A stretch of DNA of 64,000 nucleotides, taken from Heterostelium album PN500. Lineage: Eukaryota > Evosea > Eumycetozoa > Acytosteliales > Acytosteliaceae. Shown here in pieces: positions 81 to 43,378 of this stretch. The first letter of the stretch is position 1, and every line of letters begins with the position of its first letter. The notes below the pieces were generated by a model, which was not told the DNA's origin, ran no database searches, and saw only the letters and a program-made list of their open reading frames with translations. Made by a program: the position numbers and the translations under genes. The stretch covers positions 372,001 through 436,000 of the forward strand of contig NW_008805097.1 of assembly GCF_000004825.1 (NCBI RefSeq), written 5' to 3'.

Positions 81-153
81 GGGCTTGTAGCTCAGATGGT
101 AGAGCGCTCGCTTAGCATGCGAGAGGTAAAGGGATCGATACCCTTCTAGTCCA
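81..153 (+). tRNA. tRNA-Ala (anticodon AGC)
   Basis: The 73 bases fold as a cloverleaf. The acceptor stem opens GGGCTTG and closes CTAGTCC with one T-T mismatch. The D arm is GCTC/GAGC, the anticodon stem CTCGC/GCGAG holds loop TTAGCAT, and the T stem is AAGGG/CCCTT with loop ATCGATA. The anticodon at 114-116 is AGC. The G3-T70 wobble pair, the main alanine identity element, is present. There is no intron and no encoded CCA beyond the discriminator A. A and B box promoters lie inside the gene as usual for Pol III. In dictyostelids tRNA genes are known landing sites for retroelements, but none is seen in the flanks here. Confidence 0.95.
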
Positions 154-35601: not shown

Positions 35602-36721
35602 TTTTTTGTTTTTGATATTTCGTTCTATCTACTTTACAATATCTAATCTAATACTAATACTAATACTAATATAACAACAAATTTTCTATCTATTAAACTA
35701 AACCTAAACTAACTATCTAAACCTATCTAAATAAATAAATAAAATTAATTTTAAATTCTTTGAATAATAATAATAATATAAAAATAATAGTTTTTCTATT
35801 ATGACAAAATAAAATATAAACTATAGTTAAGTACTACTTTGTTGAATTTGAAAATAATAATAACAACAACACTTGTGTTATATATTTTTGTTTATTTTCC
35901 CTCCATTAATTAACTTTGCAAAATAAGCACACAATCGAAACTTTTGAATAATTATCATCTAGGTGGTTCGTACAAAAATTATGTGATATTGATGTTGTGA
36001 AGTGTTCTCAACAATTTTGAAAAATGTGGATGTGGGCAACAAGTGTGCATTGGATTTAATATATACACAACAATGATAAACAATTATATTAATCGCTTAT
36101 CTATATACTTACTTTAAGAAAATGATAATTAAAAGAGTTATTTGTTTAGATTCAAAAGTATAATAATATTTATTTTCGAAATTTATTGAACTGTGATGTT
36201 GTTGTTGTTTTTTTTTTTTTTTGAAAAGCGATTATCAAAAGAATTACAACATTTTTTTCCTTTTTTTGATCTTAAAAAAACATAAAAAAATAAAAAAATA
36301 ATCGAAAATGCAAAAAAACTGGAAAATTGTAGAGGAAGAAATATCTTAATGTCATCATTAATTCCCTTTTTATAAAGGTTGAAAATTTGTAATGAGCGAA
36401 ATTTCAAATATTTTCTTAAAAAAGAAATTCAATTGCGAATGTTTTGTTTTGTGGATTGGGCAATCTATGGTTGATGTCAGAATAATTATAATAGCGTCGT
36501 TGTACAATTTATCAATTTAAATTGCTTAAACAAAAGATTCAAGAAATTAAGAAATTCAAAATAATTACTCATTCTTTGTTCATCAAAAGATACTTTTAGA
36601 CCCTCAGATTTTGTTAAAACTATCTAGAAGTTTAGAATTTTTAATGGTTTTGGATTAAAAAAAAAGAGAAAAAAGTATAAAATAAATATATTTATATGTG
36701 TTTTATTAAATAAAATAAATA
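35602..36721. promoter_or_regulatory. acox promoter side and myotubularin 3' side
   Basis: The right-hand neighbour (myotubularin) ends here, so the left part of this 1.1 kb should hold the acox promoter. An ACTAATACTAATACTAAT repeat lies near 35650-35670. A weak minus-strand frame around 36490-36630 is discussed among the rejected items. No RNA gene is recognised. Confidence 0.45.
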
Positions 36722-38815
36722 TTATAGGAATCCATGGAAATTACGCCAATAAAGGTAATATTGATTCCATAATTGTAAATTCATTGTGTCGACTGAGAGT
36801 ATTTCGGGGTTTGATTGATAGCTAGAGTTACGCCACTGTGATGTATGTGCATTTAAGTAGCTCCAGAGACTTTGTGTCTTTTTAGAGAGTTCGTTGGTGA
36901 CACGCTCCGCTTCACTGTCGTAGAGGAACGTTCCAAATCGGCAGCTGTAAAGATGATGAATGATCTCCATGAGATACTGTTGATTGAATTCGAAACGCTG
37001 TGGATTCTGTATCAATATCTGATAGACACAATCGATAAACTGAAGGAACACCGGTGAGTGTTCGATGGCGGTGTGCTTCTCCACTCTGGACCCCTGGCCA
37101 ATACGCGACTCGAATTTGTGGCCGAACGAAAGCCACTCTTTCTCTATCAGCTTTTGGAAGCCGACGATCGTGCGATAGGCAGGGTCGAGTAGGAGTTCGG
37201 CGAGTGCGCACAACTGACTGGTACGATCCCAGCCGTCGGAGCAATGAATGATTACAGAGGATTTGAGATAGCGGATGACATCGACAATCTCGGTGACACC
37301 ACAGAGAATCGAGCGAATATGTTCGAGCCATATGTTGGTTGCCTTTTCCAGTTTGAGCTGATAGCGATCGTATTCCTTCTCGTACATCGAGGTTTTGAAT
37401 AGTTTCTTTTGGGCTTCACGCATCTTGTGGATGTTTTCAATGTTTAGGAATTTCAAGACGCAGTTGCTGTACGTTGATTTGGTACCTTCGTAACCCATAC
37501 CCATGACTTGGTTGGCAACTGCATTGATCTGTGGTCTGGCATCCATAATATATACACGTTCGGAATCCAAGTTTGCAAGACGAATGTTTTCAATTAGTTT
37601 CTCATCCTCGAGACATCGTTTACCAGTGACACCGATCACAGGTTGAGAAGATCGAACGATAACAGCATATTCCTTTGGATGTTTCCAAACCAACACGGGC
37701 AATCTACCTTTACTTCTAAACGATGTAATATTGATCAACTCCAAATCTGTTATTCTCTTTGGCACGACCATCGTTGATGGATAGGTTGGTGAATAGTAAT
37801 AATCATTATTGAAATTTGTAACTCTCCACGATTCATTTGGTATACCCATTCTCTGATATTCTTCTGAAGGATTATATATATTCCATCCTTTACTTTGATC
37901 TACAAATAATAATAATAATTATAGAAAGGAAAATATAATTGTTAACAATCAATCAAATAAAATTATTAAATGATTATATGCTTACCTAAATTTGATATAT
38001 TATTTGAAGCAAAACAAAATAGTTTTGAATATTCTGAACTGAAAATTAATGGTTCAAATATTTCATAGAGTCTAGAGTTTGCTTTTTGTTGTGATGATCC
38101 AGGTCTATTTTAGAAAATAATTAGTATTCAAATAATATATATGATTGATTTGTTCAATTTAAAGTTTGACTTTTTTTTTTTTGTAAACTTACAAATGCAT
38201 AAATCTAATTCTATGGAAATCTTTACATTTGATTTCAAATGCATAGTATTTCAATTTGTCGGGAGTGAATCCTGTGCACTTGACAATGTCTTCGATCATT
38301 CCTAGAGGAACTGATATTCCTTCGGTCTCGCACTTCTTGCTCATCTTGCTGCCATAGTATGGTGCAAAATATAATCTAAAGTTGGTGAGAGTGATACGTC
38401 CAATGGTACCACTGTTGCCATGCACATGAATGATACTCTCACTGTAGAAAACAATATTCTCGGATGGCAATAGAATGATTTCATTGCTCTTTGATTTGAG
38501 TTTGTCAATCAAATGCTTTGGAATATTGCTTGACGATGGTGTATTTGGAATCTTTGAAACACCCAATGCAATCGGTGAAAATGATGGATGAATAGATGAT
38601 GTACTTGGTGTTGCCATTACAAATGTTGAAGTAGAGTTATTACTATTACTATTACTATTACTATTATTATTACTAATATTTAAATCTAAATTATTATTGT
38701 TGTTATTATTTTTTTGTTGAATAGTTGATTCTTGATTATATACAGATTTATAAGATAGAGTTGCTTCTAATAAATTGATTGTATCTTTAGTTGGTTTATA
38801 TCCTTTTCCTTTATC
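36722..38815 (-). CDS. GRAM-myotubularin phosphoinositide 3-phosphatase (possibly the C-terminal half of a PX-PH-myotubularin gene)
   Basis: Exons 38193-38815, 37986-38104 and 36722-37899. The catalytic signature is HCSDGWDRTSQL, with the active cysteine and arginine of the Cx5R motif, so the enzyme should be active on PI3P and PI(3,5)P2. A GRAM/PH-G domain precedes it (ENIVFYSESIIHVHGNSG ... RITLTNFRLYFAPYYG), and family blocks such as SSQPVIGVTGKRCLEDE and EKEWLSFGHKFESRIGQG follow. From the first ATG of the block (38617) it gives 573 residues, but the frame is open and coding-like for 66 codons further upstream (KGYKPTKDTINLLEATLSYK, then Asn/Ser runs). That stretch is bounded by a CCACAG acceptor at 38816. 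So the true start lies in an upstream exon, perhaps in the PX-PH gene at 40362-42555. Confidence 0.9.
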
Positions 38816-40361
38816 CTGTGGTTGGTGATGATTTCGATGATTTAAATATAAATTTAAATTAGTAAGTAAAGTAATAATAAATATAATAATAGTTATTAAG
38901 TTTTAAGTTGTGAAATTAAAATATTAATAATTATTGGTGAAGTGGTATTAATAATGTTGGAAATGTTTGTTGTTGGAGATTTAGGTTGCAAAATAGTTTA
39001 GTTAGGTTAATGAATTTAAATATGTAATCGATTAATGTTTTGTTGTTAATGAACTCTTTTCATTTAAATAAAATAAAAAAAGAGAAAGAGCTGCTGTTAC
39101 TTGTTGGCCATTAACACCAAGTACACCACCAAATTAAGCATATGTTTTTTAAAACAAACACATTGTATAACTAAAAAAAAAAAGGACAACAACAACAACA
39201 GCTGAAAATCAACACCATTTTACTTTTAATAAATTGATGATGAACAACAACCTACCACCTACACATAAATAAGTAAACACAACAAACACATACCATATAC
39301 AAACACACACACACAGTTTGATAATATATATATTCCAATGTTAAAGATTAAAAAAATATAAATATATAACTTTTTTAAAACAAAAAAAAAAATTATAACC
39401 AACTACAGTCAAACAACACATTCTCTCTAACCCATCCATCATCACCTACAATCACATTCATAGACATCATGAAAGGATCATTATCATCTCTATTTTTTGA
39501 ACTGAATCATAATCGATTCAATTAATTTAACACACACACTACTGATATAATTAATTCAGCAAATCTATTACAAAAAATAAAAATTAACAATAACAGTAAC
39601 AATAACAATTAAAATACAAAAACAAACCAACATGTAATGATAATGTAGTAACACAATGAACAGGTGTTTGTGTGGTTGTGAAGATGATTGGTGTGGTATT
39701 TTTATGTTTTTTTTTTATGTTGTGTTTGTGGTTTATGGAGAGTTTTGTTTAACACAGAAATAGAAATGGTATGTATGTGGTCATATACCTGATTGGTCAT
39801 ATATAATTAATTTCTATTTTATACCATCAGATTTACTATTTTTTTTTATACTTAAATATGGATGTCACTACTTTAAATACTAATAAAAAAATAAAATACA
39901 GTATTCTATCTTTACTTCTGAGTAATATTATTTTGATCAATGATTGTATGTTATTTCCAATTTCAGTATCACTGTGATATTGTTATTGTCTATGTTGTGT
40001 TTAAATTTAGTTTGTTTTTTTTCAATCATGATGATTACAATCGTAATAGATTGATTATTTGTTCAATCCAATGTACACTTTCGATTTTAAAACAAACATA
40101 CAAATAAACTAATAATATAGTTGCTGTTTTTGTTATTATTTTTAGATATTCTGATGATGATGAATGATGTTTTGATATATATATACACGAATTTAAATCG
40201 AGTTGTTGAATCAACGATATGCTATTAACGATGATGGTTATGACCATATCTACTTTACGACTAACTATGATCAATAGATTTTTACTATGACCTATTTGAT
40301 ATCAAATAGAAATAAAATAATAATATTGTTGGTGATGATAATGAGTATCGTTATAACTTAC
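38816..40361. other. 1.5 kb spacer: either a long intron or an intergenic region
   Basis: On the minus strand it starts with a GTAAGT donor directly after the PH exon and ends with a CCACAG acceptor before the myotubularin exons, both in phase 0. It is AT-rich with stretches such as GTGTGTGTGTTTG like the promoter-type spacers elsewhere. No exon with a usable start codon that would join in frame to the myotubularin exons was found. A nearer acceptor after the palindrome TTTGATATCAAA would end the PX-PH protein after six more residues (VIVKIY). Confidence 0.4.
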
Positions 40362-42555
40362 ATTGTCAATTGACCATTCTTGATTCTGAATAAACACACG
40401 ATATGATGACTCATCCTGTAGTTCTGTCATAATGTTATTGTTATTACTGTCACCATCTTGTTGTTGATTGTTTTTAACAGGTACTGGATTAGTTTTAAGT
40501 TGACGTTGTTGTGAATTCGATAAACTACTGTCGAGTTTCATTGATTTAGATAGTACACTTCTACTAAGTGACAATGGTATGGGTGGTGGCGCTGGGATAT
40601 TTACAGTCGTTATTGTTGTTGCTGTTGTTGTTGTTGTGGAGGTTGAGTTTGGAATAGGTGTGATTGCTTGATGCTGTTGTTGTTGTTGTTGTTGCATGAA
40701 TAATATTGATGCTGTCAGATTGTTTTGTGCAGTGTTGATCTCTTTGTTGATTGTCTCTAACCACTGTACCAATTTCTGCTCAGACTCTGAGCATAAAAAG
40801 TATTTCTCTTCGTCTTGATCCTCCTCTCTTGACCCGGTGCAACTTAGTGCAAGAGAGTTGGACGATACAGAAGATTTGAATTGCTTGTGTCTGATAGCTC
40901 CACTGTCAGCCTCCTGTATCTTTACCTCAACGCATAGCTTATCGAGAGTATGCGTTATCTTTGCTGTGGCATGTCTTAGATTGATGACACCCTTTGCTTC
41001 TGCATATTGATTCCTAGTTTTCCAAAAGAAAAGGTTGGCATTGACCACCACACAATATACTTTTTTCCACTTTCTTTTCTTTCTCGACAAACTACTCCTC
41101 TGTATCAGTAAATATAAATATCCTTCTTTTGATGGATTAGTTATTGACTTAAGCGATGGCTAAATGAATAAATAATTAAAAAATTAGTTTGTAATATTAA
41201 TGTGGAACTCTAATCATTGTCAACATACTGAAAAGTTTGGATCTAAAAACACTTTGAGATTTCTTGACTGTTTCGCTAAATTAGATTCACATATTGCATT
41301 GAAAAACAGTTGCAATTGATTGCATCTTTGTTTAATAAATTGAGGATTCATATTTCCAATGATCTTTTTCGATGGAAAGTCAAATGCTGTTAATGATGGT
41401 ACTTCATTTTGAATCTAAATTGTTATATTTAAAATAAAAATTAATTTTCAAAGGTAATTACAGTTACTTTAATAAAAATTAATATTTACTTTTAATGAGA
41501 ATGCTCTAACATGTTTATATCTACGAACTTTTTAATAATAATAAAAGAAAATTAGAAACTAATTTTGTTTTGTTCCCAAAGTTTAAAAGAATTATACTTA
41601 CCGATTGTCCAAACAATATCATTACTTTTTACATTAATAACATAAACCTAATATAATATATAAATATTTTTTAAAATTAGATAAAATAATATAAAAATAA
41701 AAGAATCAATATAATAATTACAGTATATGACTTTTTCGAAGTTTCAACAGTCTCTGTTGATGAAATAACAAGTGAGAATTGAGATGATTTGTCGACTGGA
41801 ACCATTACTGAGCTTGAGTAGTGTGAGGGATTAACAAACTTTTTGGAACTTGCCAAACCACCTCTAGATGCTGTTCCAGTGAATAGTCTGCTCGAACCCC
41901 TATTTAGTGATGTCTTATTTCCATCGGCTTCACTGTCATTCCCGCCGCTAAGTTGCAATGATGAATTGGATGGAGTAATCTTTCCACGAGTCCAACCACC
42001 ACTTGGTGGAGCCGCTACACTAGAAGAGGAACGCACTTCTCTTCTCGATTTAAAGTCACTCTCGCCCAAATTGGAATCATCACTAGTGGTATGTGCGCTT
42101 GTTACATTGTAAGGATTATTGAGTTTGGATGGTGATGCAGAATACTCTACACTACTGCTTCTTGGTTTTGTTGTAATATTTATATTAATGTTGTTGCTAT
42201 TGTTATTGATATTGTTGTTGGTTTTTTCAGAGAGTGGAATAGCAGTGGTAGTGTTGGTAACAGTATTGGTTGGTATAGAAGCAGTTGAAATCTTAAAGAA
42301 ACCAGTCTCTGTAAATCCATCGTTTCGTTCTTCATCCTCCTCTTCGTCATCACCACTTGATGAAGTTTCAGAGAATGAACTGTCATCTTCTTCCTCCTCG
42401 AGGTGTTCTTTGTTATCGATGACCAGTGATACTATTCTATTGGCTCTCTTGGAGAATGTTTCTTCAGATGGCGCTACCGCATTCAACTCCTCATTTTTAT
42501 CATTATTTTCATTCTTAATATTATTATTATTATTTGTATCACTGTTATTAAACAT
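40362..42555 (-). CDS. PX-PH domain phosphoinositide-binding protein (possibly the N-terminal half of a PX-PH-myotubularin gene)
   Basis: Five exons (41722-42555, 41602-41647, 41490-41527, 41229-41414, 40362-41159) give 634 residues up to the last donor. The first 250 residues are Asn/Ser/Glu-rich and disordered. A PX domain is split over four exons: QFSLVISSTE, VYVINVKSNDIVWTI, VRRYKHVRAFSLK with the phosphoinositide-contact arginines, then the helices FPSKKIIGNMNPQFIKQRCN and LQLFFNAICESNLAKQSRNL ending KVFLDPNF. A PH domain follows in the fifth exon (KEGYLYLLIQRSSLSRKKRK, WKKVYCVVVNANLFFWKTR ... EKYFLCSESEQKLVQWLETI). A Q-, T- and P-rich linker comes after that. It likely targets endosomal membranes through PI3P. 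The fifth exon ends in phase 0 at a GTAAGT donor, so at least one further exon exists. Confidence 0.85.
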
Positions 42556-43378
42556 TATATAAATAACTTATAACTTTTTATCACTAAGCTACTAACTATC
42601 TATACAAATAAAAAAATATTAAAAAAAAAAAAATGTAAAAGACAAACTAAAATAAATAAAATCAAGAGTGCAATGATATGTTATTGTTAAATTGATCGAT
42701 TCGATACAGATGAATAATCATAATTATCGATCTAAAAATCTTTTTTGAAGTAATTTTATTAAAATTAAACAAAAATTGGGCTTTAAAAACCCAAAAGAAA
42801 GGTTTGCAAAACTAAATATCTTTTAAAAATTGGCAATTTTTGCATTATTTTAAAAAATTTTGAACCAAACCCACAGCCAAGTTCCTATTTGTTTTGTCAT
42901 CAAAGGCAATAAGCAAATATAATCTTGTTTTGGTTTTATCTGTTGTTTTTTTTTTTTTTTCAACTTTTAAATTTAAAATTAAAACAATTATGATTTTACC
43001 CTTTTTTTTTATAATAAATAATTAATATTTTTTTAATAAATTTATTATAAAGAAATCCCTCTCCACCAATTGTATTTTTTTTTATCTTAAAATAAAATAA
43101 AGAAAAAAGACATTAAAGAACTTATTCATAGTAATAAAATTGTGATTACACCCTGTTAATAATTGTTTAATAACATGTTATATATAAATAACTTAGGTTT
43201 CTTATTTTTTAAAAAATTTTGAAAATTTGAAAAATTTAAATAGCATTGAAAAAAATTAATCAATAAAGATTCATTTATTTATATTGTTGTTTATCGAATT
43301 TATATTGTTACTAATATTAGCTATTAATAAGATTAATTTAAAGTTTTATAAAGATATATAATAATAGTAATAATAATA
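42556..43378. promoter_or_regulatory. divergent intergenic region
   Basis: It lies between the PX-PH gene start (minus) and SYF2 (plus) and should hold both promoters. A run of complementary short A and T tracts fills most of it. The paired GATCGATTCGAT and TTATCGATC motifs at 42690-42730 are the only less AT-rich part. No gene is seen. Confidence 0.5.

Follow-up and report, generated by a model that had tools for sequence, protein, structure and literature searches.

A possible PX-PH-GRAM-myotubularin gene with a long internal intron in Heterostelium album

Introduction

Active myotubularins carry the catalytic signature HCSDGWDR, and most animal members of the family also have a C-terminal coiled coil (PMC2927912). 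In the available text of their survey of 80 myotubularins, Kerk and Moorhead (2010) list PX, PH, FYVE, C1, C2 and others as accessory domains (PMC2927912), and the available text of a 2010 survey of FYVE and PX domains places Myotub-related among the domains that occur with both (PMC2837644). A point of reference in the dictyostelids is Mtm6 of Dictyostelium discoideum, described in the accessible part of the published account as binding PIP3 and PI(3,4)P2, residing at the leading edge and dephosphorylating PI(3,5)P2 and PI3P, with a membrane recruitment that depends on PI3-kinases (PMC8855053).

We analysed a locus at which exons for a PX and a PH domain are followed by exons for a PH-GRAM region and a myotubularin phosphatase. 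Our preferred reading, held tentatively and with a little less than even confidence, is a single gene encoding one 1,273-residue protein in which PX, PH and a linker precede PH-GRAM and an active-signature myotubularin core, the coding regions for PH and GRAM being separated by an intron of 1,546 bases. A preliminary description of this DNA had described such an architecture, if real, as not known from other myotubularins, a claim weakened by the listing of PX and PH as accessory domains (PMC2927912) and of Myotub-related with FYVE and PX (PMC2837644) in the portions of the two surveys cited above.

Results

The locus lies on the minus strand of the 64-kb window, the whole stretch of DNA that was analysed, where an eight-exon model spans 42555-36722, about 5.8 kb. 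Five exons (42555-40362) make up the PX-PH part and three (38815-36722) the PH-GRAM region and phosphatase. The gap between them, 40361-38816, opens with GTAAGT, closes with CACAG and is in phase 0 on both sides. Both the donor at 40361, where the PX-PH exons end, and the acceptor at 38816, which precedes the myotubularin exons, had been pointed out in the preliminary description and are present; when the junction is spliced, the eight exons join into an open frame of 1,273 codons with no stop. The features are as follows.

Exon 1, 41722..42555, minus strand: ATG at 42555, open frame, GTAATT donor; acidic, Ser- and Asn-rich low-complexity N terminus and start of PX
Exon 2, 41602..41647, minus strand: PX
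Exon 3, 41490..41527, minus strand: PX with RRY motif; acceptor AAAAAG
Exon 4, 41229..41414, minus strand: PX with FIKQR motif
Exon 5, 40362..41159, minus strand: PH domain (Pfam PH 1.6e-10) and linker; phase-0 end at GTAAGT
Gap, 38816..40361, minus strand: either a single long intron or, in the two-gene case, the 3' end of the first gene plus the promoter of the second
Alternative 70-base intron, 40292..40361, minus strand: PX-PH protein would stop after VIVKIY
Rival start exon, 39293..39397, minus strand: TATAAT-T11 at 39397; ATG at 39296 abutting a GTATGT donor whose phase matches exon 6
Branch-point-like TACTAA[CT], 38858..38864, minus strand: the only one in the gap; branch A 44 bases from the gap end
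Exon 6, 38193..38815, minus strand: linker, Asn-rich run and the bulk of PH-GRAM; no ATG before 38617
Exon 7, 37986..38104, minus strand: end of PH-GRAM
Exon 8, 36722..37899, minus strand: myotubularin phosphatase, HCSDGWDR, stop
AATAAA, 36702..36707, minus strand: about 16 bases past the phosphatase stop; the next upstream on the same strand is at 42760

The acceptor AAAAAG of exon 3 was chosen because it preserves both the frame and the RRY motif. Pfam profiles are matched almost end to end by the PX (PF00787, 1.1e-14, profile positions 5-83 of 84), the PH (PF00169, 1.6e-10, positions 2-104 of 105) and the Myotub-related domain (PF06602, 4.9e-135, positions 1-351 of 352). The GRAM profile gives an E-value of only 0.2, below its cut-off; PH-GRAM and phosphatase together align with the structure of human MTMR2 from its N-terminal PH-GRAM region onward (E about 1e-133). 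HCSDGWDR is intact in exon 8. With the catalytic domain, the active signature and an N-terminal PH-GRAM region all found, the locus is predicted to encode a member of the myotubularin family. The predicted protein ends six residues past the MTMR2-aligned core, and so has no room for a C-terminal coiled coil. In the PX domain the motifs RRY, PSKK and FIKQR are preserved in the alignment with SGK3; the residues of RRY and FIKQR are, we presume, contacts to the 3-phosphoinositide lipid.

The genome has 12 clear myotubularin loci and one further, weak one, and PX domains at nine places other than this one, none of them directly upstream of a myotubularin. The nearest other pair, on C28, is separated by 8.5 kb that contain frames on the opposite strand. 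No paralogue with the same domain order was found in the genome by an exon-wise search, which can miss split PX domains; upstream DNA was examined for nine of the 11 other clear myotubularins. There were no relatives of the locus in the viral contigs scanned, nor any in the prokaryote contigs scanned with the phosphatase exon.

The reading of the locus turns on the gap. The six remaining introns of the model are 69-88 bases long, in agreement with the earlier remark that introns here stay under about 150 bases. Elsewhere in the genome, 45 introns estimated from split Ras-family matches, hand-picked among the matches listed (40 and five more, one of which probably spans two introns), measure 59-382 bases, and the gap as an intron would be four times the longest of these. 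Its donor at 40361 is the top-scoring one within the gap. The acceptor at 38816, scored with a small matrix built from the six other introns, reaches -6.7 and ranks 43rd of 47 AGs, the acceptors of those six introns scoring 5.2 to 12.0; in its favour, no other phase-0 AG occurs from 38905 to 38560, the single TACTAA[CT] of the gap lies 44 bases upstream, and G content shifts close by. The preliminary description had also warned that a nearer acceptor would cut the PX-PH protein short, and there is one at 40292, which with the same donor gives a typical 70-base intron (acceptor score 5.4).

These observations on intron length, on the acceptable nearer acceptor and on the weak one at 38816 favour two tandem genes, a PX-PH adaptor gene ending near 40300 and a separate myotubularin gene starting in the gap, an explanation that we regard as doubtful yet quite credible. 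The PX-PH gene would end either at a stop at 40302, reached by reading through the donor, or, after splicing to 40291, with a tail of six codons. The myotubularin gene could, to give one example, use the TATAAT-T11 motif at 39397 as its promoter, start at ATG 39296 and splice from 39293 to 38815. The spacing is compatible with this layout in that the 1.5-kb gap is close in size to the one neighbouring spacing examined, the 1.1 kb that separate 36722 from the adjacent frame at 35628. The final 20 codons of the read-through frame score noncoding, which counts against the two-gene reading.

The preliminary description had reported that no start exon joins in frame within the gap. That was mistaken, since the gap has six GTA donors of the right phase downstream of an open ATG. 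The best candidate, with the promoter-like motif at 39397 upstream, has its ATG at 39296 and, immediately after it, GTATGT at 39293, the second-best donor of the gap. Against this evidence for a second gene, six such donors are not above the 7.3 expected by chance, and the candidate at 39293, the one nearest exon 6, would itself require a 478-base intron. Motifs of the TATAAT-T11 type number 15 on both strands of the window, seven of them having no ATG frame of at least 60 codons that starts within 600 bases downstream.

The main argument against a gene end in the gap comes from AATAAA signals. On the sense strand the gap has none, versus 3.4-3.6 expected by shuffling (P about 0.02); its antisense strand has nine. 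Downstream of the PX-PH end there is no AATAAA for more than 3.5 kb, in contrast to the recognised ends of actin- and Ras-family genes, all 34 of which have one within about 400 bases. Among the actin ends, the 20 of 50 matches that reach or nearly reach the profile end, the signal falls within 381 bases of the stop in every case and within 120 in 18, four of the 20 being less certain because 6-16 further codons precede the stop. The Ras-family ends with a C-terminal cysteine motif have it within 376 bases in 14 of 14 and within 120 in only three; six of the 20 Ras ends were left out, their frames not ending in the cysteine motif, and two of these six lack AATAAA in the stretch examined. A set of 51 long frames was set aside as a control, since internal exons are numerous among them.

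This argument for one gene is weaker than it looks. At the shuffled rate of the gap, 400 bases would contain AATAAA by chance in about 60% of cases, and 12 of 286 overlapping AT-rich windows of gap length have none on a given strand. No AATAAA-free tract on either strand of the window is longer than the sense one between 42760 and 36707; other long ones, on either strand, coincide with coding DNA richer in GC, and the exon portion of this tract is therefore not independent evidence. Four catalytic frames of myotubularin paralogues have a candidate end (the frame in the C11:920000 region, cut by a frame break or intron, was left out). AATAAA follows two of them at 37 and 110 bases, and the other two have none for 1,045 and 1,466 bases past the catalytic-frame stop, which may not be the gene end. 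These two paralogues fit two tandem genes as well and weaken the case for one gene.

A gap free of sense AATAAA that nevertheless holds a promoter-like motif with an in-phase ATG and donor could also belong to one locus with two promoters, yielding a long PX-PH-GRAM-myotubularin form and a short form that lacks the lipid-targeting modules. The chance frequency of start-exon candidates and the abundance of such motifs in the window, nearly half of them with no nearby frame, make this unlikely.

In exon 6, 66 codons (38815-38618) precede the first ATG at 38617. The preliminary description had called this stretch open and coding-like. The openness holds: none of 2000 shuffles keeps the frame open, and 68 of 2000 do so when only the segment ahead of the Asn-rich run is considered. 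The codon structure holds too, with GC at 24 of 72 bases at codon positions 1 and 2 and 1 of 36 at position 3 (p = 1.4e-4) in the pre-ATG stretch; on the first 110 bases, however, a genome-trained coding model is neutral (-0.024 per base, a score equalled or exceeded by 185 of 433 open noncoding frames). Being coding-like for 66 codons without an ATG, exon 6 needs an upstream start, and on the sense strand no ATG occurs from 39063 to 38617. A myotubularin gene starting at ATG 38617, unspliced upstream and with the 66 codons as 5' leader, is very improbable: the leader-like lack of ATGs and the neutral coding score would suit it, but the codon-position structure and the improbably open frame do not, and base composition shifts near 38816-38835 rather than at 38617 (best point for G content 38817 over 39100-38480, and 38835 over 39055-38618). 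The block 39055-38817 is poor in AG and in G, which is compatible with an intron end and a 5' leader alike.

Other contents of the gap were considered. An RNA gene was ruled out, with no tRNA found and no Rfam match at the gathering score or even at E-values as high as 1, as was a mobile element or repeat, matches elsewhere in the genome being short and of low complexity. A nested protein gene on the antisense strand was likewise rejected: no stop-to-stop frame exceeds 56 codons, and most coding scores fall below zero, the highest for any 90-base window being +0.039. The sense strand has an open frame of 88 codons at 40301-40035 (ATG at 40247, in-phase donor GTACAT at 40076). Two of its windows have weakly positive coding scores, +0.032 and +0.057, which exceed those of exons 4 and 7 (0.015 and 0.018), both short but genuine, and GC3 is low over part of the frame (uncorrected p 0.0013). 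GC3 is also low in another open stretch, 39130-39071 (p 1e-4 as the best of several thousand windows), for which no usable acceptor was seen.

Discussion

The single gene proposed in the preliminary description has in its favour the gap without sense AATAAA and the need of exon 6 for an upstream start; the length of the intron, its weak acceptor, the nearer acceptor and the start-exon candidates stand against it. On balance, the sequence signals favour one joined gene over two only slightly.

The joined protein would have a low-complexity linker, and its gene the 1,546-base intron, between PH and PH-GRAM. Judging from the sequence, the PX domain, a predicted binder of 3-phosphorylated inositol lipid, may act with the PH domain to keep the enzyme at the membranes of endosomes or macropinosomes or at the leading edge. 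The phosphatase could then strip the 3-phosphate from PI3P or PI(3,5)P2, erasing the mark that recruited it. Such a phosphatase, able to read the very lipid that it destroys, would provide compact negative feedback at these sites, and this idea of self-recruitment can be tested well in dictyostelids. With the PI3-kinase-dependent recruitment and activity of Mtm6 already reported in the accessible account (PMC8855053), the idea is testable rather than revolutionary. Less likely still than the two-promoter reading above is that three lipid-reading modules (PX, PH and PH-GRAM) precede an active core and that a promoter inside the long intron yields a second phosphatase that is not targeted, so that the cell could alternate between a 3-phosphoinositide eraser that recruits itself and a cytosolic one. 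More generally, the locus illustrates that gene models in AT-rich amoebae need RNA evidence for the choice between one gene and two. For P. pallidum, RNA-seq data and gene models built on transcripts have been published (PMC5282741), which would apply here if this is the organism concerned.

How does the locus compare with known systems? A literature search that included PMC2927912, PMC2837644, PMC8855053, PMC6563779, PMC8261248, PMC5282741, PMC12667876 and PMC10309190 found no dictyostelid PX-PH-myotubularin gene in the available running text, and the corresponding part of the Kerk and Moorhead survey lists PX and PH separately, without stating the carrier species or co-occurrence in one protein (PMC2927912). 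Myotubularins of the MTMR2/MTMR1 type (PDB 1zsq, 1lw3, 5c16) share PH-GRAM, phosphatase and HCSDGWDR with the locus, which differs in the possible extra PX and PH at the N terminus. The closest PX sequences with solved structures, those of SGK3 (CISK) and KIF16B, share its basic PX motifs, but are joined to a kinase and a kinesin motor, respectively, and neither to a phosphatase. Mtm1-9 of D. discoideum, and Mtm6 in particular, are dictyostelid myotubularins like the predicted product of the locus, a shared membership that does not imply orthology (PMC8855053, available text). The amoebozoan IMLRK proteins (inactive myotubularin/LRR/ROCO/kinase) are, like the product proposed here, amoebozoan myotubularins with added domains; they are catalytically inactive according to the available text of the survey, whereas this locus retains the active signature (PMC2927912).

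Gene model and domain content

The rebuilt gene model, from a genome of 32.9 Mb in 39 contigs, has eight minus-strand exons.

Exons of the rebuilt gene model, with a tRNA gene of the window
42555-41722, minus strand, exon 1
41647-41602, minus strand, exon 2
41527-41490, minus strand, exon 3
41414-41229, minus strand, exon 4
41159-40362, minus strand, exon 5, followed by the 1,546-base gap
38815-38193, minus strand, exon 6
38104-37986, minus strand, exon 7
37899-36722, minus strand, exon 8
81-153, plus strand, tRNA-Ala (AGC)

Joined, the exons give 1,273 stop-free residues with Pfam matches to PX (residues 287-365, 1.1e-14), PH (378-509, 1.6e-10) and Myotub-related (870-1214, 4.9e-135); GRAM falls under the Pfam cut-off (E 0.2), and the PH-GRAM region is covered by an alignment to human MTMR2 (~1e-133). 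Aligned with SGK3, the PX domain retains RRY and FIKQR, which we take to be lipid-contacting residues. If the halves are joined, the PX and PH domains would most likely keep the phosphatase on membranes carrying 3-phosphoinositides, which it would then dephosphorylate.

The HCSDGWDR signature, given for active myotubularins in the accessible part of one survey (PMC2927912), is unbroken here, and judged by its residues the myotubularin half is a typical representative of the active type; HC[ST]DGWDR is shared by 8 of the genome's 12 clear myotubularins. The retrieved part of four of the 12 places (C10:301424, C11:42867, C8:106355 and C37:22361, by contig) holds no H[CS]xDG signature. Those on C10 and C11 both have very long open frames carrying Ras-type matches, and are probably inactive myotubularin/ROCO (IMLRK) proteins as described for Dictyostelium. 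A PX domain on contig C9 (stretch L040, 4712-4969, minus strand) is 44% identical to that of this locus, at a place without a myotubularin match.

One gene or two

The signals at the gap pull in both directions. We tentatively favor a single PX-PH-GRAM-myotubularin gene, as the preliminary description proposed, at slightly less than an even chance; a PX-PH gene followed in tandem by a separate myotubularin gene is a substantial possibility. Intron length argues for two genes, since 1,546 bases is far beyond the estimated range elsewhere in the genome (59-382 bases with a median of 96; six exceed 200 bases and none exceeds 400; n=45, from split Ras-family matches among those listed). The donor at 40361 can instead be joined to 40291, removing an intron of typical length (70 bases) and ending the PX-PH protein six codons on, which bears out the earlier concern about a nearer acceptor.

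Polyadenylation hexamers weigh against two genes. A PX-PH end near 40300 would leave more than 3.5 kb without a sense AATAAA, the next being at 36707, ~16 bases past the phosphatase stop. In this genome, all of 20 actin-family stops, a selection from 50 matches listed, have one within 381 bases (18 within 120), as do 14/14 Ras-family stops with a cysteine motif within 376 bases (3 within 120); six of 20 Ras-family ends were left out, and two of those six have no AATAAA. On the other side, ~60% of 400-base stretches would contain the hexamer by chance at the rate of the shuffled gap. Neither strand of the window has a longer AATAAA-free tract than 42760-36707, and the other long ones coincide with GC-richer coding DNA on both strands; thus only the gap itself counts as evidence. 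There, sense AATAAA is absent versus 3.4-3.6 expected (P ~0.02), and antisense copies number 9 versus ~4.5, but of 286 overlapping AT-rich windows as long as the gap, 12 lack the hexamer on a given strand. Among four myotubularin paralogue catalytic frames with candidate ends, AATAAA follows at 37 and 110 bases in two and is missing for 1,045 and 1,466 bases in the others, and we therefore lowered our confidence in one gene from even to just below.

The splice sites, scored with a matrix built from only six introns, are also mixed. The GTAAGT donor at 40361 is as strong as first described (8.6, the best of the gap; 5.6-12.6 in the six other introns). The phase-0 acceptor at 38816 scores -6.7 versus 5.2-12.0 and ranks 43 among 47 AGs. 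It is the sole phase-0 AG within 38905-38560, and TACTAA[CT] occurs just once in the gap, 44 bases before it; CTAAT stands 17-30 bases from the intron end in 4 of the 6 other introns. G content shifts nearby, the best single point being 38817 (over 39100-38480) or 38835 (over 39055-38618). The block 38817-39055 (minus strand, 4 G in 239 bases) is almost without AG; a scan of 302 kb of strand gave seven such G-poor blocks, this one included.

The phosphatase half apparently requires a start farther upstream. Its frame is indeed open for 66 codons from 38815 to the first ATG at 38617 (0/2000 dinucleotide shuffles; 68/2000 for the portion ahead of an Asn-rich run). That this stretch is coding-like holds for the open frame and codon-position GC (24/72 at positions 1+2, 1/36 at position 3; p 1.4e-4), but a coding model trained on this genome's GC-richer frames is neutral (-0.024 per base; 185/433 open noncoding frames as high). 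The claim that the gap lacks a start exon fails, as an open ATG precedes six GTA donors that are in phase. The best candidate is ATG 39296, immediately ahead of GTATGT at 39293; a TATAAT-T11 motif stands ~100 bases upstream of it, at 39397, and is of a type found 15 times across both strands of the window. This offers a workable start for a separate phosphatase gene, but such candidates occur at chance frequency (7.3 expected in shuffles) and this one requires a 478-base intron; that one locus uses two promoters is improbable.

Two further features lie on the minus strand of the gap. An 88-codon open frame at 40035-40301 (70 codons from ATG 40247), with weakly positive coding windows, is possibly a small gene, an alternative exon or chance. 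The segment 39040-39200 folds better than shuffles (z -2.78; 1/200 as good), matches nothing in Rfam and contains a GC3-poor open stretch (39130-39071).

Comparison with known myotubularins

The architecture had been thought unfamiliar among myotubularins. In the literature searched we found no description of a dictyostelid PX-PH-GRAM-myotubularin, though public gene models of this species or of D. discoideum may already contain one; PX itself was tabulated as a myotubularin companion in 2010, the species not being named in the accessible text (PMC2927912). Another 2010 survey, in the portion available, places Myotub-related among domains occurring with both FYVE and PX, again without naming species (PMC2837644). 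On these pairings, a joined protein would belong to an already known kind, the PX-accompanied myotubularins. D. discoideum Mtm6, whose domain make-up lies outside this comparison, is a lipid-recruited active myotubularin: PIP3 binds it at the leading edge, its substrates are PI(3,5)P2 and PI3P (PMC8855053), and it shows that lipid-recruited myotubularins operate in this group.
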